DNA from: a bacterium
GTDB taxonomy: Bacteria > Elusimicrobiota > Elusimicrobia > Elusimicrobiales > UBA9959
NCBI GenBank assembly: GCA_021811405.1
Contig: JAJZOZ010000007.1
Span: forward strand, 1 to 36,245
DNA length: 36,245 bases
Direction: 5' to 3'
Shown here: piece after piece, positions 1,158-20,466 of the stretch
Numbering within the stretch: the stretch's first letter is position 1
Layout of the letters: the number at the start of each line of letters is the position of its first letter
The notes under the pieces: generated by a model
The model's input: the letters and a program-made list of their open reading frames with translations, nothing else
Told to the model about the DNA's origin: nothing
Databases searched by the model: none
Position numbers and translations under genes: made by a program

Positions 1158-1192
1158 GAAGCCCCCGGGAAAGCCGCCCGGGGGCTTCTCAT
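1158..1192 (+). terminator. Rho-independent terminator after proS
   Basis: Perfect 12-bp stem gaagcccccggg / cccgggggcttc, 7-nt loop aaagccg, followed by a T-rich stretch (tctcatttcaacttt). Confidence 0.85.
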
Positions 1193-1332: not shown

Positions 1333-2145
1333 ATGAAACCCGACGACTTCATAAAATTCCTGGACAAGGCGAAGATGTACGACCTCACGCAGCCGCTCAG
1401 CGTGCACACGCCCCCGTGGCCCAGCTACATGCCGCTGCAGGTGCAGTACTTCAAGCGCATAGCCGGCGCGCATATGGGCCAGGGAGCCAACGGCCAGATC
1501 ATAAAGACCTCCAACCACGTCGGCACCCATATGGACGGCGAGATCCACTTCTTCGGCTCCGGCCGCACTATAGGCCAGGTGCCTATGCGCGAGTGGACCG
1601 GTCCCGCCGTGGTGGTCGATATCTCCAAGGACGTCGGGGACTACGACCTGTACGAGCCCGAGACGCTGATGAAGCGCGCGGATATCCGCAAGGGCGACAT
1701 CCTGATCATCAATACCGGCTACCACAGGTACGCCTGGTACGAGAAGAACTCCGACGAGGTGCGTTACTTCGTGAAGCACCCGGGCCCCGGCCCGCGCTTC
1801 CACAAGTGGGCGCTGCAGATGAAGTTCAAGTGGATAGGCGTGGACTGCGGCTCCGCCGACCACCCGATGAACACCATCATCCGGAACTGGCACCCGAAGC
1901 TCTTCATCGAGGCCGAGAACAAGCTGGTCGCCAAGTACGGCCAGAAGTGGGACGACATGTTCCCGATAGACGAATACTACCAGGTCATGCACCTGAAGCT
2001 GTTCCCCAGGCGCCTCGTCCACGCGGAGAACCTCGGCGGCGAGATAGAGAAGCTTTCGAACAAGCGCTGCTGGCTCGGTTTCTTCCCGCTGAAGGGAATG
2101 GAGCTGGAGTCTTCGATGGGCCGCGTCGTGGCCTGGACCGCCTGA
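1333..2145 (+). CDS. Cyclase-family metal-dependent hydrolase (kynurenine formamidase / isatin hydrolase-like)
   Basis: Motif SNHVGTHMDGEIHFF (HxGTHxDxxxHF metal-binding signature of the cyclase family, PF04199); SD-like aggaga upstream of ATG. Confidence 0.88.
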   Translation: MKPDDFIKFLDKAKMYDLTQPLSVHTPPWPSYMPLQVQYFKRIAGAHMGQGANGQIIKTSNHVGTHMDGEIHFFGSGRTIGQVPMREWTGPAVVVDISKDVGDYDLYEPETLMKRADIRKGDILIINTGYHRYAWYEKNSDEVRYFVKHPGPGPRFHKWALQMKFKWIGVDCGSADHPMNTIIRNWHPKLFIEAENKLVAKYGQKWDDMFPIDEYYQVMHLKLFPRRLVHAENLGGEIEKLSNKRCWLGFFPLKGMELESSMGRVVAWTA

Positions 2146-2200
2146 AGCACGCCAGGGCCCGGCCGCGCCGCGGCCGGCCCGCGGCGGAGCCGGAGGAGAT

Positions 2201-3094
2201 ATGCCGATAACAGCGGAATTCGAGTACGTCAGACCCAAGGACATGGAGGAGGCCCTCCATGTCTTTTCGCTTTACAAGGAGAAGGCCAGGGCCCTGGCCG
2301 GAGGCACGGACCTCGTCGTCCACCTCAAGGAAGGGCTGGCCAGGCCGGAGGTGGTGGTGGACGTGAAGTCCCTGCCGGAGCTCGCCGGCATCTCGCTGGA
2401 AGGCGGCAGGCTGCGCATAGGCGCGCTGGCCACGTTCACGGACCTGATAGAGTCGGCCGACGTGAAGGCTAAGTTCCCCGTGCTCTGGGAGGCGGCTCTC
2501 ACCGTGGCCTCCACCGGGGTGCGCAACAGGGCTACCTTGGCCGGCAATATCTGCTCCGCGGTCCCGTCAGCCGATTCGGCGCCGGCCCTCGCCCTGTACG
2601 AGGCCGAGGTGGTGACGCGCGGCCTAGGCGGCGGGCGCCGTATCCCCGTCGCGGACTGGTTCACCGGGCCGAAAGCGACGGCCAGGCTGCCGGAGGAGCT
2701 GGTGACCGCCGTGGAGCTGAAGCTGCCGGAGAAGAAGCACGGCGGCTGCTACATGAAGCTCTCGCGCTACGACGGCGAGGACCTGGCCCAGGGCGGCATA
2801 GCGGTGCTCGTCTTCTCCGACAATACCTACCGGGTCGCGGCCTGCGCGCTGGGTCCGGTGCCGGGGCGCTGCCGGGCGGCCGAGGCCGTACTGAACGGCG
2901 GCAAGCTGGGGCCGAAGCTGCTGGAGAAGGCGAAAGCGGCCCTGCTGGGCGAAATCTCCCCGATCAGCGACATCCGCTCCTCGAAGGAATACCGCTCGCA
3001 TATGGCCCAGGTCATGCTGGAGCGGGCCCTGCAGGCGGCGGTCTCCCGCCTTTTCGGCAAGGGCCCCGAGTACGGCGAAGGCAGCGTCTGCTGA
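2201..3094 (+). CDS. Molybdenum hydroxylase FAD-binding subunit (CoxM/XdhB-like)
   Basis: ALAGGTDLVVHLKEG and ATLAGNICSAVPSADSAPALALYEAEV, typical of the FAD-binding subunit of Mo-hydroxylases. Confidence 0.93.
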   Translation: MPITAEFEYVRPKDMEEALHVFSLYKEKARALAGGTDLVVHLKEGLARPEVVVDVKSLPELAGISLEGGRLRIGALATFTDLIESADVKAKFPVLWEAALTVASTGVRNRATLAGNICSAVPSADSAPALALYEAEVVTRGLGGGRRIPVADWFTGPKATARLPEELVTAVELKLPEKKHGGCYMKLSRYDGEDLAQGGIAVLVFSDNTYRVAACALGPVPGRCRAAEAVLNGGKLGPKLLEKAKAALLGEISPISDIRSSKEYRSHMAQVMLERALQAAVSRLFGKGPEYGEGSVC

Positions 3095-3106
3095 ACGGAG
3101 CTCAAG

Positions 3107-3574
3107 ATGAAAAGCCACCAAATAAAGTTCAACCTTAACGGCGAGGCGGTCTCCCTCTCCGTGGAACCCAGCGACGTGCTGCTGGACGTCCTGCGCGGCC
3201 GGCTGGGCATAAAGAGCCCCAAGGCGGGCTGCGACCGCGGCGACTGCGGCACCTGCACCGTGCTGATGAACGGCCGCACCGTGCGCTCCTGCCTCGCGCT
3301 GGCCGTGGAGGCCGACGGCGCGGAGATAGTGACGCTCGAGGGCGCCAATACGCGCAAGTGGACGCAGAAGCTGCAGAAGAAGTTCCACGAGAAGAACGCT
3401 TTCCAGTGCGGCTTCTGCGCTCCCGGCGTTATTCTTTCCGCCACGGAGCTGCTGGAGAAGAACCCGAAGGCCACGCAGCGCGACATCAAAGAGGCCATCG
3501 CCGGCAACCTCTGCCGCTGCACCGGCTACGAGCCGATAGTCGGCGCTATAGCCGAAACGGCCAGGGAGCGCTGA
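3107..3574 (+). CDS. Molybdenum hydroxylase 2Fe-2S subunit (CoxS/XdhC-like)
   Basis: CDRGDCGTCTVLMNGRTVRSC plant-type 2Fe-2S motif and FQCGFCAPGVILSA...GNLCRCTGYEPIVGAI second cluster motif. Confidence 0.96.
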   Translation: MKSHQIKFNLNGEAVSLSVEPSDVLLDVLRGRLGIKSPKAGCDRGDCGTCTVLMNGRTVRSCLALAVEADGAEIVTLEGANTRKWTQKLQKKFHEKNAFQCGFCAPGVILSATELLEKNPKATQRDIKEAIAGNLCRCTGYEPIVGAIAETARER

Positions 3575-3575
3575 C

Positions 3576-4016
3576 ATGAGAACGGTACCGCTCATCCCCT
3601 TCCTTCTGTGCTGCTGCGCCTGCGCCATCCCGCAGCCCGGCATGTACGGCGCCTCGCCGTACGCGAAAAAGCCGGTCTCCTCCTTCTTCGGCCAGCAGCA
3701 GGAGGCCGCCCCGTACGTGGACGAGACCGTCGACGTCGTTTCTTACCCCCCGGGCGCCCGCATCCAGGTCAACGACGCCTTCGCCGGCTACGCGCCGGTG
3801 CGCTACAGCGTGCGCAGGCTCTGGCGCGGCCAGCCCGGCATGATGACCCTCGACACCGTCAAGATCGAGGCCCTGCCGGTGGCCGCCGGCCAGTGCGTGC
3901 AGGGAGGATTTTACGGCCAGGGCAACCAGAAGGTCCCCTCGCCGGTCAGCTTCACCATGACCAGCTGCGCCCCGGCGCAGCAGTCCCCGGAAGGATACCG
4001 GAACTCTTCCAAGTAG
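3576..4016 (+). CDS. Putative exported/lipoprotein with PEGA-like segment
   Basis: N-terminal MRTVPLIPFLLCCCACAIPQ hydrophobic Cys-rich signal; VDVVSYPPGARIQVNDAFAGYAPVRYSV resembles a PEGA repeat. ATG lies 1 nt after the preceding stop codon. Confidence 0.7.
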   Translation: MRTVPLIPFLLCCCACAIPQPGMYGASPYAKKPVSSFFGQQQEAAPYVDETVDVVSYPPGARIQVNDAFAGYAPVRYSVRRLWRGQPGMMTLDTVKIEALPVAAGQCVQGGFYGQGNQKVPSPVSFTMTSCAPAQQSPEGYRNSSK

Positions 4017-4038
4017 CGCTCAGGGAGCGGAGGCAGAC

Positions 4039-6438
4039 ATGCATCTTCAGAAAGTAAAGACCAAGCCGCAGAAAAAGTCCGCCCGGGCCGGGGAGGAGGG
4101 CGGGCTGGAGGTGGTCGGCAAGCCGGTGCAACGCGTGGACGGCTGGGAGAAGATCCGCGGAGCGGCCAAATACACCGACGACCTGGAGTTCGGCCCCGGC
4201 CTGCTTTACGCCGCCCTGGTGGAGAGTCCTTACGCCCACGCCAGGATAAAGTCCATCGACACTTCGGCCGCCGAGAAGCTGGACGGGGTGGTCAAGGTGG
4301 TCACCGGTCGTAATTTCATACACAAGTTCGGCCTGTACATGAACGACCGCTACATCTTCGCCAGCGACGTCGTGCGTTTCGTCGGCGAGCAGGTCGCGGC
4401 CGTGGTGGCCACGGACCCGAAGGTCGCCCTGCGCGCAGCGGCGCTGGTCAAGGTAAGCTACCAGGAGCTGCCGGCGGTGATGGACCCCGTGAAGGCGCTG
4501 GAAAAGGACTCCCCGCTGGTGCACCCGGACCTCAAGGATTACCGGCACGTGCCCTGGTTCTTCCCCAAGCCGGGCACCAACATCGCCCACTGGCGCAAGA
4601 TCCGCAAGGGCGACCTTGAGAAGGGCTTTAAAGAGGCGGACCTGGTCCTCGAGGACACCTACACGGTCCCGCGCTACGCCCACTGCGCGATAGAGCCGCA
4701 TTCGGCCGTCGGCCTGTACGACGCCTCGGGCCGGCTGACGATGTGGACCTCGTCGCAATCCCCCTTCACGCAGCGCCACGTCTTCGCCGAAACGCTGAAA
4801 GCCTTCGGGATAGGCCACAAGGACGTGCGCGTTATCAGTACCTACATCGGCGGCGGCTTCGGCGGCAAGGCCGGGGTCACGATGGAGATCATCGCCGCGG
4901 CCCTGGCGATAGCCGTGCCCGGCCGCCCGGTCAAGCTGCTGTGGAGCCGCGCGCAGGAGTTCTACAACACCTACCAGCGCCTCGGCGTCACCGCGAAGAT
5001 AAAGATGGGCGCCACGAAGGCAGGCAGGATAACCGCGCTGGACTTCAAGCTGCACTGGGACGCGGGCGCCTACGTGGAGTACGGGGCCAACGTCGTCAAC
5101 GCCGCCGGCCTGTCGGCGAGCGGCCCCTACAGGGTGGACAACCTGAGCGTCGACTCGATGTGCACCTATACCAACCTGCCGCCCTGCGGCGCCTACCGCG
5201 GCTTCGGCTATTCCGAGTTCCTCTTCGGCCTGGAGTCCCACATCACCCGCATGGCCGAGAAGCTCGGCGTGGACCCCGTGGAGTTCCGCAAGAACAACGC
5301 CATCAGGGAGGGCGATACCCTGCCCTACGGCGCGCATATGAACCCCACCGGCATCCGCGAGGCCATAGAGAAGGTGGAGAAGGAGATTAACTGGGGAAAG
5401 AAGGAGAAGTCCCGCGACCCGAAGAAGGCCGTCGGCAAGTCGCTGGTCTGCTTCTGGAAGTCCCCCGCCATGCCGCCCAACGCGAGTTCCAGCGCCTTCC
5501 TGAAGTTCAACGAGGACGGCAGCATCAACATCCTGGTCTCCGGCATGGAGATAGGCCAGGGCCTGCTGACCGTGATGGCGCAGATCGCCGGAGAGGTGCT
5601 GTCCGTGCCGGTCTCGAAGATCCGGGTGGAGACGCCCGATACCGACCGCAACCCTTACGAGTGGCAGACGGTGGGCTCGCACGTCACCTGGGGCTGCGGC
5701 AACGCGGTCAAGCGGGCCGCGCTCGAGGCGCGGGAGCGCATCTTCGACCTGGTGCAGCGCGTGCACTGCCTGGACAAGAGCACGCTTTACCTCGAGGACG
5801 AAAAGGTGAAATGCCGCACCAAGCCCGGCTTCGCCCTGCCGTTCAGGGATTTCGTGATAAACGGCATACAGGCCGAGGATTTCACGTTCAAGGGCGGGCC
5901 GATCATGGGCTCCGGCGTGTTCATGCCCGAGTTCGCCTCCGCCATCAGCGACCCGGAGACCGGGCAGGGCGGCCATCCCAACGTGCACTATACCACCGGC
6001 GCGGCCGGGATAATCCTGGAAGTGGACCGCGAGACGGGAAAGATGAGGATAAAGAAGGTGGCGCTAGCCGTGGACTGCGGCAAGGCCATCAACCCGGACC
6101 TGGTCAGGGGCCAGGTGGTGGGCGGCCTGCTGCAGGGCTTCGCCACCGTCCTCTACGAGGATATGCGCTACGACGCGAAGGGCAGGCTGCTGAACCCGAA
6201 CTTCTCGGATTACAAGATCCCCACCGCGATGGATATGCCGGACGAAGTGGTGCCGATAATCATAGAGGTGGCCCAGCCCGACGGGCCCTTCGGGGCTCGC
6301 GGCGTGGGCGAACACACGATGATCCCCTGCGCGCCGCTTATCGCCAACGCCGTGGCTGACGCCCTCGGCGTACGGGTGAGGTCCATGCCGGTCACGAAGG
6401 AGAAGGTGGCGCTGGCCGCCGGGGCAGGGAAGAAATAG
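4039..6438 (+). CDS. Molybdenum hydroxylase molybdopterin-binding catalytic subunit (xanthine dehydrogenase / CoxL superfamily)
   Basis: GGGFGGKAG, PPCGAYRGFGYSEFLFGLE, MEIGQGLLTVMAQIAGE, and C-terminal ARGVGEHTMIPCAPLIANAVADALGVR with the GVGE catalytic Glu. Confidence 0.95.
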   Translation: MHLQKVKTKPQKKSARAGEEGGLEVVGKPVQRVDGWEKIRGAAKYTDDLEFGPGLLYAALVESPYAHARIKSIDTSAAEKLDGVVKVVTGRNFIHKFGLYMNDRYIFASDVVRFVGEQVAAVVATDPKVALRAAALVKVSYQELPAVMDPVKALEKDSPLVHPDLKDYRHVPWFFPKPGTNIAHWRKIRKGDLEKGFKEADLVLEDTYTVPRYAHCAIEPHSAVGLYDASGRLTMWTSSQSPFTQRHVFAETLKAFGIGHKDVRVISTYIGGGFGGKAGVTMEIIAAALAIAVPGRPVKLLWSRAQEFYNTYQRLGVTAKIKMGATKAGRITALDFKLHWDAGAYVEYGANVVNAAGLSASGPYRVDNLSVDSMCTYTNLPPCGAYRGFGYSEFLFGLESHITRMAEKLGVDPVEFRKNNAIREGDTLPYGAHMNPTGIREAIEKVEKEINWGKKEKSRDPKKAVGKSLVCFWKSPAMPPNASSSAFLKFNEDGSINILVSGMEIGQGLLTVMAQIAGEVLSVPVSKIRVETPDTDRNPYEWQTVGSHVTWGCGNAVKRAALEARERIFDLVQRVHCLDKSTLYLEDEKVKCRTKPGFALPFRDFVINGIQAEDFTFKGGPIMGSGVFMPEFASAISDPETGQGGHPNVHYTTGAAGIILEVDRETGKMRIKKVALAVDCGKAINPDLVRGQVVGGLLQGFATVLYEDMRYDAKGRLLNPNFSDYKIPTAMDMPDEVVPIIIEVAQPDGPFGARGVGEHTMIPCAPLIANAVADALGVRVRSMPVTKEKVALAAGAGKK

Positions 6439-6479
6439 GGAACTTTAAGGTCCGGGAGAAGTCCGGCAAGGGAGACAAC

Positions 6480-7241
6480 ATGAAAGCAGCGCTTTGCCAG
6501 TACGACATCAAGTGGGAGGACAAGGAAGCCAACAAGAGCAGGATAGAGGATTTGCTGACCGACTTCAAGCGGCGCTCGGAGATCGACTGGCTGGTCTTCT
6601 CCGAGATGACCCTCTCCGGCTTCACGATGAACACGGCCGCCTCCGAGCTTACTGACGAGGACCACGCTTTCTTCTCGGGGCTGGCGGCCGAGAACCGCAT
6701 CAATATCTCCTACGGCGGGGTCGAGAAGGGCTACAACAACCTGATAACCCTCGACCGCAAGGGCAACAGGATCAACACCTACTCCAAGATCCACCTGTAC
6801 GCCTTCGGCGGCGAGGACAAACACTACAAGTCCGGTTCGAAGCAGGAGGTCTTCGAGCTGGAAGGGCTGCGGGTCATGCCGGCCGTCTGTTTCGACCTGC
6901 GCTTTCCCTACCTTTTCTGGAACAAGGCCAAGGACGTGGACGTCTATGTCGTGATAGCCGCCTGGCCGATGCGCAGGGCCGAACACTGGATGACGCTGCT
7001 GCGCGCCCGCGCGGTGGAGAACCAGGCCTACTGCATAGGCGTGGACCGGGTGGGCATGGAAGGCAAGATCGAGTACTCCGGCAATTCGATGTGCTTCGAC
7101 CCGCTCGGCAAGGTGGTGGCGGACGCGGGCACGAAAGAGGGCATTTATCTCGCCGAGACCCCTCTGGACAAGACGCTGGTGGCCAAGACGCGGGAGCGCT
7201 TCCCGTTCATCGGGGAGAGGAAGAGCTTCCCCTGGCAGTAG
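6480..7241 (+). CDS. Carbon-nitrogen hydrolase (nitrilase superfamily, omega-amidase/YafV-like)
   Basis: Catalytic triad context: FSEMTLSGF (Glu), YSKIHLYAF (Lys), MPAVCFDLRFPYLF (Cys). Confidence 0.92.
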   Translation: MKAALCQYDIKWEDKEANKSRIEDLLTDFKRRSEIDWLVFSEMTLSGFTMNTAASELTDEDHAFFSGLAAENRINISYGGVEKGYNNLITLDRKGNRINTYSKIHLYAFGGEDKHYKSGSKQEVFELEGLRVMPAVCFDLRFPYLFWNKAKDVDVYVVIAAWPMRRAEHWMTLLRARAVENQAYCIGVDRVGMEGKIEYSGNSMCFDPLGKVVADAGTKEGIYLAETPLDKTLVAKTRERFPFIGERKSFPWQ

Positions 7242-7248
7242 GGTCGTC

Positions 7249-7356
7249 GTGAACCGGAACGCAAAACGCGCTCGCGCACACCGTGCGCTCGCTCATCACT
7301 CAGCCCTCGCGCTATGCAAGCTCGGGCTTCGCGAAGGTTTTGCTAACCCGGTTCAC
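7249..7356. repeat. Palindromic intergenic element (~108 bp) with nested hairpins
   Basis: Outer arms gtgaaccgg (7249-7257) / ccggttcac (7348-7356) and next inner arms gcaaaac (7261-7267) / gttttgc (7337-7343), both perfect complements; interior contains gcgcac-acc-gtgcgc and aagc-tcgg-gctt hairpins. Confidence 0.75.
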
Positions 7357-7416
7357 TCCTCCTTCATCGCCTCAGGACTTTGTTTTCTTTGGTCTATGCA
7401 TCTGAATGGATAAATT

Positions 7417-8967
7417 ATGATCAAGACTGTTATCAAGAAGGGCGCGTATTACGATTCGGTGATGCTGATGCAGGCCGCCAGCGCGCTGCGCTCGATGCCC
7501 GGCGTGGAAGAGTCTGCGGTGGTGATGGCTACGCCGGAGAACAAGGGGATCATCAAGAGCTCCGGCCTGCTCACCGCGGAGATACAGAGCGCCGGGGAGA
7601 ACGACCTGGCCATCGCCGTCAGCGCGAGGACCGGCGAGGCCGCCGACGCGGCGCTTAAGGCGGCGGATGCCCTGCTCAATAAGAAGGCGGAGCCGGCCGC
7701 GGGCGCGGACCGGAAGGCCTCCGGCCTGGAGGAGGCCGCCGGCATGCTGGGCGGCGCCAACCTGGCCGTGGTCTCCGTGGCGGGGCGCTTCGCCGGCGCG
7801 CTGGCTTCCGACTGCCTCGAGCGCGGGATGAACGTGATGCTTTTCTCGGACAACGTGCCGGTGGCGACCGAGGTAGCGCTGAAGAAGGCGGCCGTGAAGA
7901 AAGGGCTGCTGGTCATGGGCCCGGACTGCGGCACCGCCATCATTAACGGGGCTCCCATAGCTTTCGCCAACTCCGTGCGCCGCGGCAATATAGGCGTGGT
8001 GGCCGCTTCCGGCACCGGAGCGCAGGAGGTCACCGCGCTGATCTCCAACGACGGCGCCGGCATCTCCCAGTGCATAGGCACCGGCGGCCGCGACGTCAAA
8101 CTGGAGGTGGGCGCGCTCACTTTCCTGCAGGCCTTGAGGATGCTCGCCTCCGACCCGGGCACCGCCGTGATCCTGCTGGTGGCCAAGCCCCCGCACCCGG
8201 CGGTACTGAAGAAGATACTTTCCGAAGTGAAGCGCATAAAGAAACCGGTGGTGGCGGTGCTGCTGGGCGGAGAGATAAAGGAAAAGGTCAGGGACGGTTT
8301 CTACCCCGCCAGGACGCTGGAAGAGGCCGCGCTGAAGGCCTCGGCGCTGGGCAAGGGGCAGGAAGCGGGCAAGGCCAGGGAAGCGATCTACGACACGAAT
8401 CTCAAGGCCGCCGCTCTCGCGAAAAAGGCCGCCTCGGGCAAAAAGAGGGCCGGGTTCCTGCGCGGCCTGTTCTCCGGAGGCACGTTCGTCAGCGAGGCGC
8501 AGGTGATACTCCCCGAGCTTATAGGCGAGGTCCGCTCCAACGCCCCGCTGGACAAGGAACTGAAGCTCGCTGACTCCATGAAGCTTACCGGCCACGCCGT
8601 GATAGACCTCGGCGAGGACGAGTTCACCGTAGGGCGCCCGCACCCGATGATAGACTTCTCGCTGCGCAACAGGATGATAGTCTCCGAGGCGGCGAAGCCC
8701 GAGGTCTCGGTGATACTGCTGGACCTCGTGCTCGGCTACGGTTCCAACCTGAAGCCGCTCGAAGACATACTCCCCCCGCTGCGCGAGGCCTTCAAGTCGA
8801 ACCGGGCCCTTTCCATAGTGACCTCGGTCACCGGCACGGAGGCCGACCCGCAGGTGCGCTCGCGGGTGGTTAAGGCGCTGGAGGACGAGGGAGTCCTGGT
8901 CATGCCTTCGAACGCCTCCGCCTGCCGCCTGGCGGGCGAGATAATCCGGCTTTCCTCCAAGAGGTGA
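7417..8967 (+). CDS. fdrA: FdrA family protein (acyl-CoA synthetase-like fold; oxamate-carbamoyltransferase-type subunit)
   Basis: SVAGRFAGALASDCLERGMNVMLFSDNVPVATEVALKKAAVKKGLLVMGPDCGTAIINGAPIAFANSVRRGNIGVVAASGTGAQEVTALISNDGAGISQCIGTGGRD is characteristic of FdrA. Confidence 0.93.
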   Translation: MIKTVIKKGAYYDSVMLMQAASALRSMPGVEESAVVMATPENKGIIKSSGLLTAEIQSAGENDLAIAVSARTGEAADAALKAADALLNKKAEPAAGADRKASGLEEAAGMLGGANLAVVSVAGRFAGALASDCLERGMNVMLFSDNVPVATEVALKKAAVKKGLLVMGPDCGTAIINGAPIAFANSVRRGNIGVVAASGTGAQEVTALISNDGAGISQCIGTGGRDVKLEVGALTFLQALRMLASDPGTAVILLVAKPPHPAVLKKILSEVKRIKKPVVAVLLGGEIKEKVRDGFYPARTLEEAALKASALGKGQEAGKAREAIYDTNLKAAALAKKAASGKKRAGFLRGLFSGGTFVSEAQVILPELIGEVRSNAPLDKELKLADSMKLTGHAVIDLGEDEFTVGRPHPMIDFSLRNRMIVSEAAKPEVSVILLDLVLGYGSNLKPLEDILPPLREAFKSNRALSIVTSVTGTEADPQVRSRVVKALEDEGVLVMPSNASACRLAGEIIRLSSKR

Positions 8968-10364
8968 ATATGGGACTTTTCGAAACCGAGCTCAAAGTGG
9001 TGAATATAGGCCTGGAAGCGTTCATGCAGGGCCTGCGCGATTCCGGAGTGAAAGCGGTGCAGGCTAAGTTCAAGCCCCCGCTGGTCTCCGACGCTTCGCT
9101 GTTCGCGAAAGCCGCCAAGGCCTCCGCGCGCGTCGAGAAGGCCAACCGCAAGGCGATGGAGAGGATACTCGCCGCCAAGCCCGCCCTGACGGGCATGGGG
9201 ATCGCCCTGGACGTTATACCGGGCATGCGCAAGGACCTGATATTGCACGCCGGGCCCCCGGTCTCCTGGGGCAGGATGTGCGGCCCGATGCGCGGCGGCA
9301 TCATGGCCGCGCTGATGTACGAGGGGCTTGCCAAGACTCCGGAAGAGGCCGGGAAGCTGGCGGCCTCCGGCAAGATCAAGTACGAGCCCTGCCACGAGCA
9401 CGGCGCAGTCGGGCCGATGGCCGGCATAATCTCCGCGTCGATGCCGGTCTTCATCGTGAAGAACGAGGCGCACGGCAACACGGCCTACGCCACGCAGAAC
9501 GAGGGCCTCGGCAAGGTGCTGCGCTACGGCGCCTATTCCCCGGAGGTGATAGAGCGCCTGAAATGGATGGAGAAGGTCCTTTACCCGGCGCTCAGGGACG
9601 CCATAGAGTTCCTCGGCAGGGTGGACCTGAAGGCTATGGTGGCGCAGGCGCTGCACATGGGTGACGAGGTCCACAACCGCAACCGCGCCGGGACCTCGCT
9701 GTTCTACCGCGCCATCGCTCCGGCCGTCATCAGGACCTGCAAGGACCCGGAGACCGCCGCCAAGGTGCTGGATTTCGTGAACGGCAACGACCATTTCTTC
9801 CTTAACCTCTCGATGGCGCTGTCGAAGGCCTCGCTGGACGCGGGGCGGGACGTGAAGGATTCCAGCGTGGTGGTGGTGATGGCCCGCAACGGCACCGAGT
9901 TCGGCGTGCAGCTCTCCGGTACCGGCGGGAAATGGTTCACGGGACCGGCGCCAGTGCCGGACGCGCTGTATTTCCCGGGTTACACCAAGGCGGACGCGAA
10001 CCCGGACATCGGCGACTCGGCCATCACGGAGACGAACGGGCTGGGCGGCTTCGCGATAGCGGCGGCGCCGGCGATCGTGCAGTTCGTCGGAGGCAGCGCC
10101 TCCGACGCCGTGAGCTACACGATGGCCATGTACGGGATAACGGCGGCGGAGAGCAATATCTACAAGATCCCCGCGCTGGATTTCCGTGGCACCCCCACGG
10201 GCATAGACGTCGTCAAGGTGGCTAAGACCGGCATCCTGCCGTTCATCGACACCGGCGTGGCGCATAAGGACCCCGGAGTGGGCCAGGTGGGGGCCGGCGT
10301 GCTCAGCGCCCCGCCCGAGCCCTTCGCCCGCGCCTTCGAGCATTTCGCCAGGACCCTGAAGTAG
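8964..10364 (+). CDS. DUF1116 (YlbE-like) protein, partner of FdrA
   Basis: Overlaps the fdrA stop (GTG at 8964 or ATG at 8970). Conserved DUF1116 segments: AGPPVSWGRMCGPMRGGIMAALMYEG, EPCHEHGAVGPMAGIISASMPVFIVKNEAHGNTAYATQNEGLGKVLRYG. Confidence 0.92.
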   Translation: MNMGLFETELKVVNIGLEAFMQGLRDSGVKAVQAKFKPPLVSDASLFAKAAKASARVEKANRKAMERILAAKPALTGMGIALDVIPGMRKDLILHAGPPVSWGRMCGPMRGGIMAALMYEGLAKTPEEAGKLAASGKIKYEPCHEHGAVGPMAGIISASMPVFIVKNEAHGNTAYATQNEGLGKVLRYGAYSPEVIERLKWMEKVLYPALRDAIEFLGRVDLKAMVAQALHMGDEVHNRNRAGTSLFYRAIAPAVIRTCKDPETAAKVLDFVNGNDHFFLNLSMALSKASLDAGRDVKDSSVVVVMARNGTEFGVQLSGTGGKWFTGPAPVPDALYFPGYTKADANPDIGDSAITETNGLGGFAIAAAPAIVQFVGGSASDAVSYTMAMYGITAAESNIYKIPALDFRGTPTGIDVVKVAKTGILPFIDTGVAHKDPGVGQVGAGVLSAPPEPFARAFEHFARTLK

Positions 10365-10386: not shown

Positions 10387-10416
10387 AAGAAGCCCTTTTC
10401 CAGGGCTTCTTCTTTA
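10387..10416. terminator. Rho-independent terminator after the DUF1116 gene
   Basis: aagaagccc (10387-10395) / gggcttctt (10403-10411), loop ttttcca; A-tract before and T-rich stretch after. Confidence 0.85.
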
Positions 10417-17841: not shown

Positions 17842-19233
17842 TCAGATGAATTGCGGGTTTTCGCGGCGCAGGAAGCGCCCGCGGAAGGACTTCGGTTCGG
17901 CGAGTTCGCCGGCCTCGGCCGCTACCCTGCCCCGCAGCACGGTGTACTTAGGGAAGCCGTACAGCGGGCGGCCCTGCCAGGGAGAATAGTCCGTCCTGTG
18001 CTGCAGCCTTCTCCAGTCCGCCTTGACGGCGCAGCCCGGGTCTATCAGCGCCAGGTCGGCGTCGTAGCCGCGGCGGATGAAACCCTTGCCCTTCAGGCCC
18101 ATTATCCTGGCCGGGTTCTCGCAGAGCGCCCCGACCAGTCCCTGCAGCGAAAGCCTTCCAGCCTTGACCCCGTAGGTGTAGGCGGCCGCCAGCAGCGTCT
18201 GCGCGCCCGGCAGCCCCATCGGGAGCCTCCGTACGTCCCCGCCCCAGGCGTCCTTCTGCGCGCGGGAGAAGGTGCAGTTGTCGGTAGCGATCACCTGCAG
18301 GCTTCGCTTTTTCAGCGCCAGCCAGAGAGCCGCGTTGTCCGCGCGGGTCCGCACCGGCGGGCAGCAGGAATAAAGGTGCCCGTCGGGACGCGAGAAGACG
18401 CTCTCGTCGAGGGCGAGGTACTGGGGGCAGGTCTCGCCCATCACCCGCGCCCCGGCGGCGCGGGCGCCCGCCACTACGGCCGCCGAGCCCGCGGCGGAGA
18501 GATGGACGAAGTAGACCGGCGCGGCGGCGGCGGCGGCCAGGGCCGACACGCGGCTCACGGCTTGCGTCTCGGTGAAGTCGGGGCGGGTGAGCGGCAGGGC
18601 CTTGATGCCGGAGCCGGGCGGAACGAGGCGGGACAGGGCGTCTATCACGGGCCCGCTCTCGGCGTGCACGCAGACCAGGGCGCCCCGGGCGGAACTTTCG
18701 GCCAGCGCCTCCCCCAGGTCCGAGTCGTCGGACATCAGGCCCCGGGCGCCGTAGGCGGTGAACATCTTGAAAGTGGGCGCGCCGGCCGCTACGCAGGCGG
18801 AGATCTGCCTGCCCGGGGAGCCCAGCTTCCTCCAGCCGGTCAGCAGGCAGTGAAAGGAGTAGTCCGCATGGCAGCGGCCGGCCGCCTCCTTCATCCTGGC
18901 CCGCAGGCCGGCCAGCGGGCTTTCGCCGGGGGCCTGCCCGGTGTAATCGATAAAAGTGGTGACTCCGCCGCAGACGGCGGCGGCCGAGCCTGACGAGAAG
19001 TCGTCGGAGGTGTACCGCCGGGGCCCGAGCTTGAGCCTGAAATGCGCGTGCGCGTCGATTATGCCAGGCAGCACCAGGAGCCCCCGGGCGTCTATTATCC
19101 TGGCGGCGGGCGCGGCGGCGCGCGACGGGCTCCTGAGGTCCGCGATCCTGCCGTCCCGGATAAAAACGTCGCGGAGGGAAACTTTCCCTCCGCTTATCAC
19201 CCTGCCGCCGCGTATGACCAGGTCGAATTTCAT
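17842..19233 (-). CDS. Dihydropyrimidinase/hydantoinase-like amidohydrolase
   Basis: MKFDLVIRGGRVISGG, PGIIDAHAHFRL, APTFKMFTAYGARGLMSDD (candidate carboxylated Lys), MGETCPQYLALDE, SPWQGRPLYGFPKYTVLRGRVAAE. Confidence 0.85.
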   Translation of the reverse strand: MKFDLVIRGGRVISGGKVSLRDVFIRDGRIADLRSPSRAAAPAARIIDARGLLVLPGIIDAHAHFRLKLGPRRYTSDDFSSGSAAAVCGGVTTFIDYTGQAPGESPLAGLRARMKEAAGRCHADYSFHCLLTGWRKLGSPGRQISACVAAGAPTFKMFTAYGARGLMSDDSDLGEALAESSARGALVCVHAESGPVIDALSRLVPPGSGIKALPLTRPDFTETQAVSRVSALAAAAAAPVYFVHLSAAGSAAVVAGARAAGARVMGETCPQYLALDESVFSRPDGHLYSCCPPVRTRADNAALWLALKKRSLQVIATDNCTFSRAQKDAWGGDVRRLPMGLPGAQTLLAAAYTYGVKAGRLSLQGLVGALCENPARIMGLKGKGFIRRGYDADLALIDPGCAVKADWRRLQHRTDYSPWQGRPLYGFPKYTVLRGRVAAEAGELAEPKSFRGRFLRRENPQFI

Positions 19234-19469: not shown

Positions 19470-19498
19470 ATTCTAAGATTTAAACCTTGCCAAGTCAA
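19470..19498 (-). promoter_or_regulatory. Putative sigma70-type promoter, TTGACT-N17-TAGAAT
   Basis: Minus strand: -35 TTGACT (19493-19498), 17-bp spacer, -10 TAGAAT (19470-19475); only 7 nt between the -10 and the ATG at 19462. Confidence 0.65.
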
Positions 19499-20466
19499 CC
19501 TCGTCCGCCAGGGAAGAAAAGACGGTGCAGGGCCCGCACCGAGCCCTCCGCGGAAGCCGCCGGCACCGAAACGGTGATCTCCGCGCCGGAAGCCGAGCAT
19601 GCCCTCGCGGCGGGGCCCGCGGCCTCGAGGGCCGCGGCGGCGTGGGACCGGCCGAGCCCGGCGCCGACCAGGCCTATCCTGGCGCGGCGGCCGTCCTTGA
19701 CGAGCGAAAGGCACGAGACGCCCGGCCCGCCGCCCCTGGCCGTCACGAGCGTGCCAGGCTCGTCGTGAAAGGCAGAACGCAGATGGAGCGGTATAGAATG
19801 GCGGGCCGCGTAGGCAACGGCGCGCAGCTGGCGCACTTCGGTGCCGAGCCGGGCAAGGGACAGGACCTCGCCGTAGGAGATGCGGGCTATGCGGCGGGCC
19901 TCCGGAACTATGGCCGGGTGGGCCGTGTAGATCCCCTTCACGTCGGTGCGGAATTCGCAGACCGCGGCGCTCAGCGCCCTGGCCAGCACCACGGCGGTGA
20001 GGTCGGAACCGCCGCGCCCGAGCGTGGTGATGTCGCCGCGCTTATCGGAGCCCTGGAAGCCGGCTACCACGGGTATATTCCCGGCCCGTATCTCCCGGCG
20101 CAATCTGGCCGTATCCACGGAGAGCACGGCGGCGGAGGAAAAGCCGGAGTCGGTACGTATGCCTGCCTGCCGGCCGGTGAGGGAGACGGCCCTGCCTCCC
20201 AGGTCGGCCGCGGCCGCGGCCAGCAGCGCGGCGCTTATCTGCTCTCCCGCGGCCATCAGAGCGTCGGCTTCCCGCAGCGGGGTGCTGTCCCCCCCGCACA
20301 GCCTGGCCAGCGACAGCAGGTCGTCGGTGGAGTCGGCGGGGGCGGAGACTACGGCGACCGGGAAGCGGGAGGGGCTCCTGGCCGCCAGCACGGCGGCCGC
20401 GGCGCGCCGGATCTTATCGGGGTCGGCCAGGGAACTGCCGCCGAACTTGATCACTATCGTCTTCAT
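19495..20466 (-). CDS. Aspartate kinase with shortened regulatory region
   Basis: MKTIVIKFGGSSLADPDKI, GFQGSDKRGDITTLGRGGSDLTAVVLARAL, EFRTDVKGIYTAHPAIVPEAR; C-terminal RARIGLVGAGL...SVRALHRLFF resembles a second ACT domain. Confidence 0.9.
   Translation of the reverse strand: MKTIVIKFGGSSLADPDKIRRAAAAVLAARSPSRFPVAVVSAPADSTDDLLSLARLCGGDSTPLREADALMAAGEQISAALLAAAAADLGGRAVSLTGRQAGIRTDSGFSSAAVLSVDTARLRREIRAGNIPVVAGFQGSDKRGDITTLGRGGSDLTAVVLARALSAAVCEFRTDVKGIYTAHPAIVPEARRIARISYGEVLSLARLGTEVRQLRAVAYAARHSIPLHLRSAFHDEPGTLVTARGGGPGVSCLSLVKDGRRARIGLVGAGLGRSHAAAALEAAGPAARACSASGAEITVSVPAASAEGSVRALHRLFFPGGRG

Follow-up and report, generated by a model that had tools for sequence, protein, structure and literature searches.

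A conserved operon with a predicted role in oxidative, energy-conserving pyrimidine catabolism in Elusimicrobiota and other bacterial phyla

Gene content of the operon

The window analyzed here is the entire 36,245-nucleotide stretch of contig JAJZOZ010000007.1 (C53 in our numbering; GenBank assembly GCA_021811405.1), part of a 2.83-Mb metagenome-assembled genome of the Elusimicrobiota that is 88% complete and 6.5% contaminated. It contains seven catabolic genes arranged head-to-tail with a hairpin on either side, encoding a PF04199 cyclase, the CoxM, CoxS and CoxL subunits of a molybdenum (Mo) hydroxylase, a CN-hydrolase, AllF (FdrA) and AllG (DUF1116) (Table 1). We interpret this set, with moderate confidence, as an operon for the oxidative catabolism of pyrimidines with conservation of energy. 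An earlier note, drawn up from the DNA sequence, had proposed a co-directional catabolic gene set at 1333-10364, and profile searches agreed with it in that every gene it named is an open frame matching the family it had been given. The bounding terminators of that note fared less evenly: both hairpins fold, but neither appeared in the output of a simple terminator scan, and a terminator role for them is plausible. The surrounding genes have housekeeping functions, with proS (63-1139) upstream and rimP-nusA-infB downstream. While the open frame of allG spans 8964-10364, the likely translation start is the ATG at 8970, because AllG of related genomes has 464 residues and the better ribosome-binding site is located there. 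Three features had no place in the earlier note, namely a small ORF (3576-4016) for which no Pfam or NCBIfam match was found, the lack of AllH and a dispersed repeat (7242-7362).

Table 1. Coordinates of the operon genes and associated features in the window
Feature	Position	Strand	Evidence
Hairpin between proS and operon, terminator-like	1158..1188	+	RNA fold -27.5 kcal/mol, z -3.4
PF04199 metal-dependent hydrolase (cyclase); predicted barbiturate ring-opening enzyme	1333..2145	+	Pfam 113 bits, cut-off 23
CoxM-type FAD subunit of Mo-hydroxylase	2201..3094	+	PF00941, PF03450
CoxS-type 2Fe-2S subunit	3107..3574	+	PF01799, PF00111
Small lipoprotein-like ORF	3576..4016	+	Present at 41-59% identity in many but not all congeners
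CoxL-type Mo subunit; predicted uracil/thymine hydroxylase	4039..6438	+	PF02738, PF20256, PF01315
CN-hydrolase, nitrilase superfamily, YafV/omega-amidase side; predicted malonamate amidase	6480..7241	+	PF00795 137 bits
Dispersed palindromic repeat where relatives carry allH	7242..7362	.	43 matches in own genome
AllF (FdrA), transcarbamylase subunit	7417..8967	+	PRK06091 482 bits, above cut-off 433
AllG (DUF1116, Pfam now 'AllG'), transcarbamylase subunit	8970..10364	+	PF06545 326 bits
Hairpin after allG, terminator-like	about 10387..10411	+	RNA fold -17.5 kcal/mol, z -4.2

Conservation and co-occurrence across phyla

In about 20 congeneric genomes, some of them cut at contig ends, the genes follow the order proS-cyclase-CoxM-CoxS-(lipoprotein)-CoxL-CN-hydrolase-AllH-AllF-AllG-rimP. 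A second order, AllH-AllF-AllG-cyclase-CoxM-CoxS-CoxL, is present in further families and classes of the Elusimicrobiota and was also observed in Cloacimonadota, Ignavibacteria, Bacteroidota, Verrucomicrobia, Acidobacteria and others. The partners were thus kept together despite rearrangement, as functional coupling predicts. A survey of 341 Elusimicrobiota genomes located AllG in 69 and the cyclase in 68, with both in 63 (Fisher p about 3e-55), and a carbamate-kinase-like protein accompanied AllG in 63 of the 69 (p about 9e-45); outside the window's own family 22 genomes were shared between the 24 with AllG and the 24 with the cyclase (Fisher p about 2e-28), all of these p-values ignoring shared ancestry.

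A scan of the cyclase alignment against 84,980 species genomes returned 271 relatives. The best 80 of these exhibited 72-91% identity and were distributed over Elusimicrobia, Cloacimonadota, Zixiibacteriota, Eisenbacteria, KSB1, Ignavibacteria, Bacteroidetes, Planctomycetota, Verrucomicrobia, Bryobacterales (Acidobacteria), Spirochaetes, Bdellovibrionales, Eremiobacterota and Fermentibacteria, as named in the genome records, in which some bins may be misassigned. Where wide flanks were available outside the Elusimicrobiota (13 loci), CoxM, CoxS and CoxL together were encoded at 11 loci and AllG at ten. Chance adjacency of the cluster genes is ruled out by the co-occurrence and by synteny across the genus, the phylum (in two orders) and other phyla, in line with the earlier note. 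The cluster is thus a genuine operon, widespread and nearly intact in bacteria of about a dozen phyla. Because identity across phyla is so high for both the cyclase and CoxL (66-83% for the latter), one conserved substrate is likely on sequence grounds.

The ring-opening hydrolase and the Mo-hydroxylase

The metal motif of the cyclase, H62-x3-H66-x-D68-x3-H72, is invariant in 44 sequences from many phyla. The AlphaFold2 model (predicted local distance difference test score 78, weak at residues 25-61) resembles the folds of kynurenine formamidase and isatin hydrolase (Foldseek E 1e-10), the latter being the closest of the structural relatives whose ring substrate is known. Fold and motif place the protein in the PF04199 metal-dependent hydrolases, and its score against the kynurenine formamidase equivalog TIGR03035 (47.6 bits) lies below the cut-off of 223. 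The known barbiturase belongs to the AtzD/TrzD family, which is unrelated to PF04199 (PMC3758960). Matches to this family (PF09663) were found in none of 61 related genomes, but likewise in none of the control genomes, so that its absence from the relatives is no more than suggested.

CoxL carries the motif GARGVGE and groups in one tight clade with CoxL proteins of the same operon from other phyla, in a tree whose characterized references are E. coli XdhA, XdhD and PaoC only and whose deep branches are weak. It is 31% identical to E. coli XdhA, 44% identical to CoxL of a divergent Elusimicrobiota locus (L121) and 26% identical to haloarchaeal CoxL, which forms a separate clade. Scores against the large-subunit models of CO dehydrogenase were so far under the cut-offs (316 bits against 991 for TIGR02416 and 357 against 950 for NF040766) that this identity is ruled out for CoxMSL, and those for aldehyde oxidoreductases were also far under theirs. 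The Mo subunit therefore belongs with none of the curated CO or aldehyde enzymes, as the reading of the earlier note required. The nearest solved structure is 4-hydroxybenzoyl-CoA reductase, with scores of 537 bits against the corresponding model TIGR03194 (cut-off 995) and 511 bits against xanthine dehydrogenase NF043082 (cut-off 780), neither cut-off being reached.

The amidase, the transcarbamylase and its missing subunit

The CN-hydrolase matches PRK10438 with 160 bits, under the cut-off, and its residues 40-43, 103 and 137 carry the Glu-Lys-Cys triad motifs. AllF and AllG of the window are 39% and 45% identical to their E. coli counterparts, which together with AllH (formerly FdrA-YlbE-YlbF) constitute the oxamic transcarbamylase converting oxalurate and phosphate to oxamate and carbamoyl phosphate, with the carbamate kinase AllK acting next (PMC11326118). 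By homology, the FdrA and DUF1116 proteins of the window are assigned as AllF and AllG of an AllFGH-type transcarbamylase. The link to oxamate carbamoyltransferase drawn in the earlier note thus stands for two subunits, while the absence of the third had been overlooked. A carbamate-kinase-like protein is encoded outside the operon on contig C154, and its sole relatives in the PDB are carbamate kinases. The amino-acid kinase at 19495-20466 of the window was considered for this role and rejected as a relative of aspartate kinases.

Almost all relatives have allH between the genes for the CN-hydrolase and FdrA, and its absence from the window weighs against the pyrimidine-pathway reading. Nothing credible as an allH remnant was found in 7242-7416. 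The repeat in this gap, about 100 bases long with complementary ends, belongs to a type commonly found in intergenic regions of the genus, and congeners carry copies in the same gap. The sole AllH match in the assembly is located on contig C49 (L063:1-6957), where a second copy of cyclase-CoxMSL-CN-hydrolase, 75-94% identical, ends inside allH; this diverged copy probably comes from a contaminating congener, i.e. a second congeneric species in the bin. Loss of allH would be expected to inactivate AllFG and leave a decaying operon in the species of the window, and the C53 contig, the location of the sole AllH match in a diverged cluster copy and a congener (G013) that likewise lacks allH are consistent with such a broken pathway. 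On the other hand, none of the other genes is damaged and all are strongly conserved, and because a repeat with more than 40 copies sits exactly at the CN-hydrolase/FdrA junction, the gap may be an assembly join as well as a real deletion. We consider a broken pathway doubtful, although it has an appreciable probability.

Proposed pathway

The preferred reading, an oxidative pyrimidine pathway, is supported by the gene linkage, the homology of AllF and AllG, the carbamate kinase of the same genome, the ring-opening fold of the cyclase and the permease, amidase and CoA-transferase of relatives described below. We infer the following substrates and order of steps. The CoxMSL hydroxylase would oxidize uracil (or thymine) to barbiturate, which the PF04199 hydrolase would open to ureidomalonate. 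This N-acylurea would be phosphorolyzed by AllFGH to malonamate and carbamoyl phosphate, a step modeled on the E. coli enzyme and oxalurate, which is one carbon shorter than ureidomalonate. Malonamate would then be cleaved to malonate and NH3 by the CN-hydrolase or, in Cloacimonadota and some other phyla, by a malonamidase-like amidase, while the carbamate kinase encoded elsewhere in the genome would convert carbamoyl phosphate to ATP, NH3 and CO2. Malonate is probably processed as its CoA ester in other phyla, either by a type-III CoA-transferase or by a thiolase together with a GNAT-fold protein. The gist of the earlier note, an undescribed set of co-operating genes with predicted ring opening, de-amidation and retention of the carbamoyl group as carbamoyl phosphate, is supported by these comparisons; a paper describing this operon or combination was not found in the open-access literature, a scope that leaves subscription journals largely outside.

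Substrate pointers from related loci

Since AllFGH cleaves an acylurea, the opened ring must hold an N-CO-N unit beside a carbonyl. Further pointers come from genes adjoining the operon in relatives. An NCS2 permease is present in six loci from three phyla (Cloacimonadota, Bryobacterales/Acidobacteria and Spirochaetes); the one searched was closest to the uracil permease UraA (256 bits, versus 70 for a uric acid-xanthine permease), and in each of the six the NAT motif has its glutamate form, which generally marks uracil transporters. The presence of NCS2 permeases across the phylum was not specific as a test of the pathway. Seven loci encode an amidase-signature protein, the one searched having malonamidase E2 as its nearest solved structure, a match that had been expected from the proposed malonamate step. 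A type-III CoA-transferase is encoded in eight loci. In others a thiolase paired with a GNAT-fold protein lies beside the operon (ten loci, e.g. L207:2299-4222), this partner consisting of 249 residues without a Pfam match. The earlier note had left the choice between an oxidized pyrimidine of the uracil-to-barbiturate type and a hydantoin/allantoin-type ureide, and the permease and malonamidase-like amidase favor uracil, barbiturate and malonate over the latter. The series uracil, barbiturate, ureidomalonate, malonamate and malonate fits both proteins and makes sense of the CoA-transferase.

Several observations weigh against this substrate series. The permease, amidase and CoA-transferase are found in relatives and not in the window, each in a minority of loci, and the CoA-transferase resembles CoA:oxalate CoA-transferase slightly more than other types (374 bits, under the cut-off). 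A hydantoinase lies inside the operon of L206 (Bdellovibrionales), and haloarchaeal cyclases (45-47% identity) have xanthine-type permeases, a hydantoinase-like protein and a CoxL of another kind as neighbors.

The main rival that these data bring up is a five-membered ring, in which a hydantoin-type compound would be oxidized to a parabanate-like dione and opened by the PF04199 hydrolase to oxalurate, AllFGH would form oxamate and carbamoyl phosphate, and the amidase would release oxalate for activation by the CoA-transferase. Oxalurate is the proven substrate of E. coli AllFGH (PMC11326118), isatin hydrolase opens an alpha-keto-lactam, and both the oxalate-type match of the CoA-transferase and the hydantoinase-like genes, one within the L206 operon and one in the window, would fit this route. 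It would, however, demand two hydroxylations of hydantoin on general chemical grounds, and the uracil-type permease and malonamidase-like amidase of relatives speak against it, so that we judge it unlikely.

A purine or other N-heterocycle (e.g. xanthine-derived), with the operon as a new branch of purine catabolism, would be in keeping with the xanthine-type permeases of the haloarchaeal loci and with the models nearest to CoxL, those of 4-hydroxybenzoyl-CoA reductase and xanthine dehydrogenase, though it scores under their cut-offs. The cluster is devoid of other purine-ring genes, and the haloarchaeal CoxL belongs to another clade; this alternative appears more improbable still.

Two of the haloarchaeal loci, L233 and L237, are plasmids of cultured organisms on which the cyclase homologues (47% and 45% identity) adjoin genes for CoxMSL, an NCS2 permease and hydantoinase-like proteins; L233 also has a CoA-transferase, and AllFGH is not near the cyclase in either. 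The hydantoinase-like gene of the window encodes a D-hydantoinase-like amidohydrolase (17842-19233, minus strand) located 7.5 kb from the operon with apparently complete metal-site residues. Its homologue in L082 adjoins an aspartate-kinase-like gene and that in L078 follows ribF; the window protein may or may not feed the pathway.

Comparison with known systems

The anaerobic allantoin system AllFGH-AllK of E. coli (PMC11326118) shares with the operon homologous AllF and AllG (as well as AllH in relatives), a carbamate kinase in the genome and the expected chemistry of acylurea phosphorolysis to carbamoyl phosphate. In contrast to that system, the window has a Mo-hydroxylase, a PF04199 ring opener and a nitrilase-type amidase, no allantoin enzymes and no AllH, and the carbamate kinase is encoded outside the operon. 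In the oxidative pyrimidine pathway of a few bacteria, uracil is oxidized to barbiturate, which barbiturase and ureidomalonase convert to malonate and urea (Soong et al., as cited in PMC3758960). The proposed intermediates through ureidomalonate and the end product malonate would be the same, while a PF04199 enzyme would replace the AtzD/TrzD-family barbiturase and ureidomalonate would be phosphorolyzed with retention of energy rather than hydrolyzed to urea. The operon as reconstructed works like AllFGH combined with the oxidative pyrimidine pathway and is a member of neither as defined, because the window is without AllH and the barbiturase family differs.

The reductive uric acid pathway of E. 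coli and C. difficile (PMC12507026) also employs a Mo-hydroxylase and a cyclic amidohydrolase, in E. coli together with a carbamoyltransferase and carbamate kinase, but acts on another ring through the transcarbamylase YgeW and has neither a PF04199 enzyme nor AllFGH. A parallel in its logic is plasmid pSR8 of Aminobacter sp. SR38 (L144), where a ring opener is coupled to AllFGH and carbamate kinase (ArcC); it is an independent precedent for this combination and speaks for the preferred reading. Unlike the window, pSR8 has an opener of the cyanuric acid hydrolase type (AtzD/TrzD) and an ABC transporter, and no Mo-hydroxylase is encoded in the 31-kb stretch. The cluster includes FdrA, DUF1116, DUF2877, carbamate kinase and a cytosine-deaminase-like gene and perhaps serves the phosphorolysis of a ring-opened triazine or barbiturate. 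A further AllFGH setting without allantoin genes was observed on E. coli plasmid NZ_CP019909.1 (L146) and a Peptoclostridium megaplasmid (L143), with an isochorismatase-type hydrolase, AllH-AllF-AllG, carbamate kinase and nucleobase permeases.

Implications

The conserved operon allows proteins now annotated separately as 'cyclase family', 'xanthine dehydrogenase family' and 'DUF1116' to be annotated jointly. We see an even chance that it encodes conversion of uracil to malonate by a PF04199-fold barbiturase and an AllFGH-type ureidomalonate transcarbamylase, with ring breakage yielding ATP, so that a pyrimidine would be fermentable in about a dozen mostly uncultured phyla. If so, genes would be assigned to an oxidative pyrimidine pathway that lacks the known barbiturase family, and AllFGH transcarbamylases would extend beyond oxalurate. 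A pathway that has been called rare (PMC3758960) would be common among uncultured bacteria of sediments, groundwater and digesters, and the operon would explain how such bacteria could gain ATP from the free nucleobases of dead cells.

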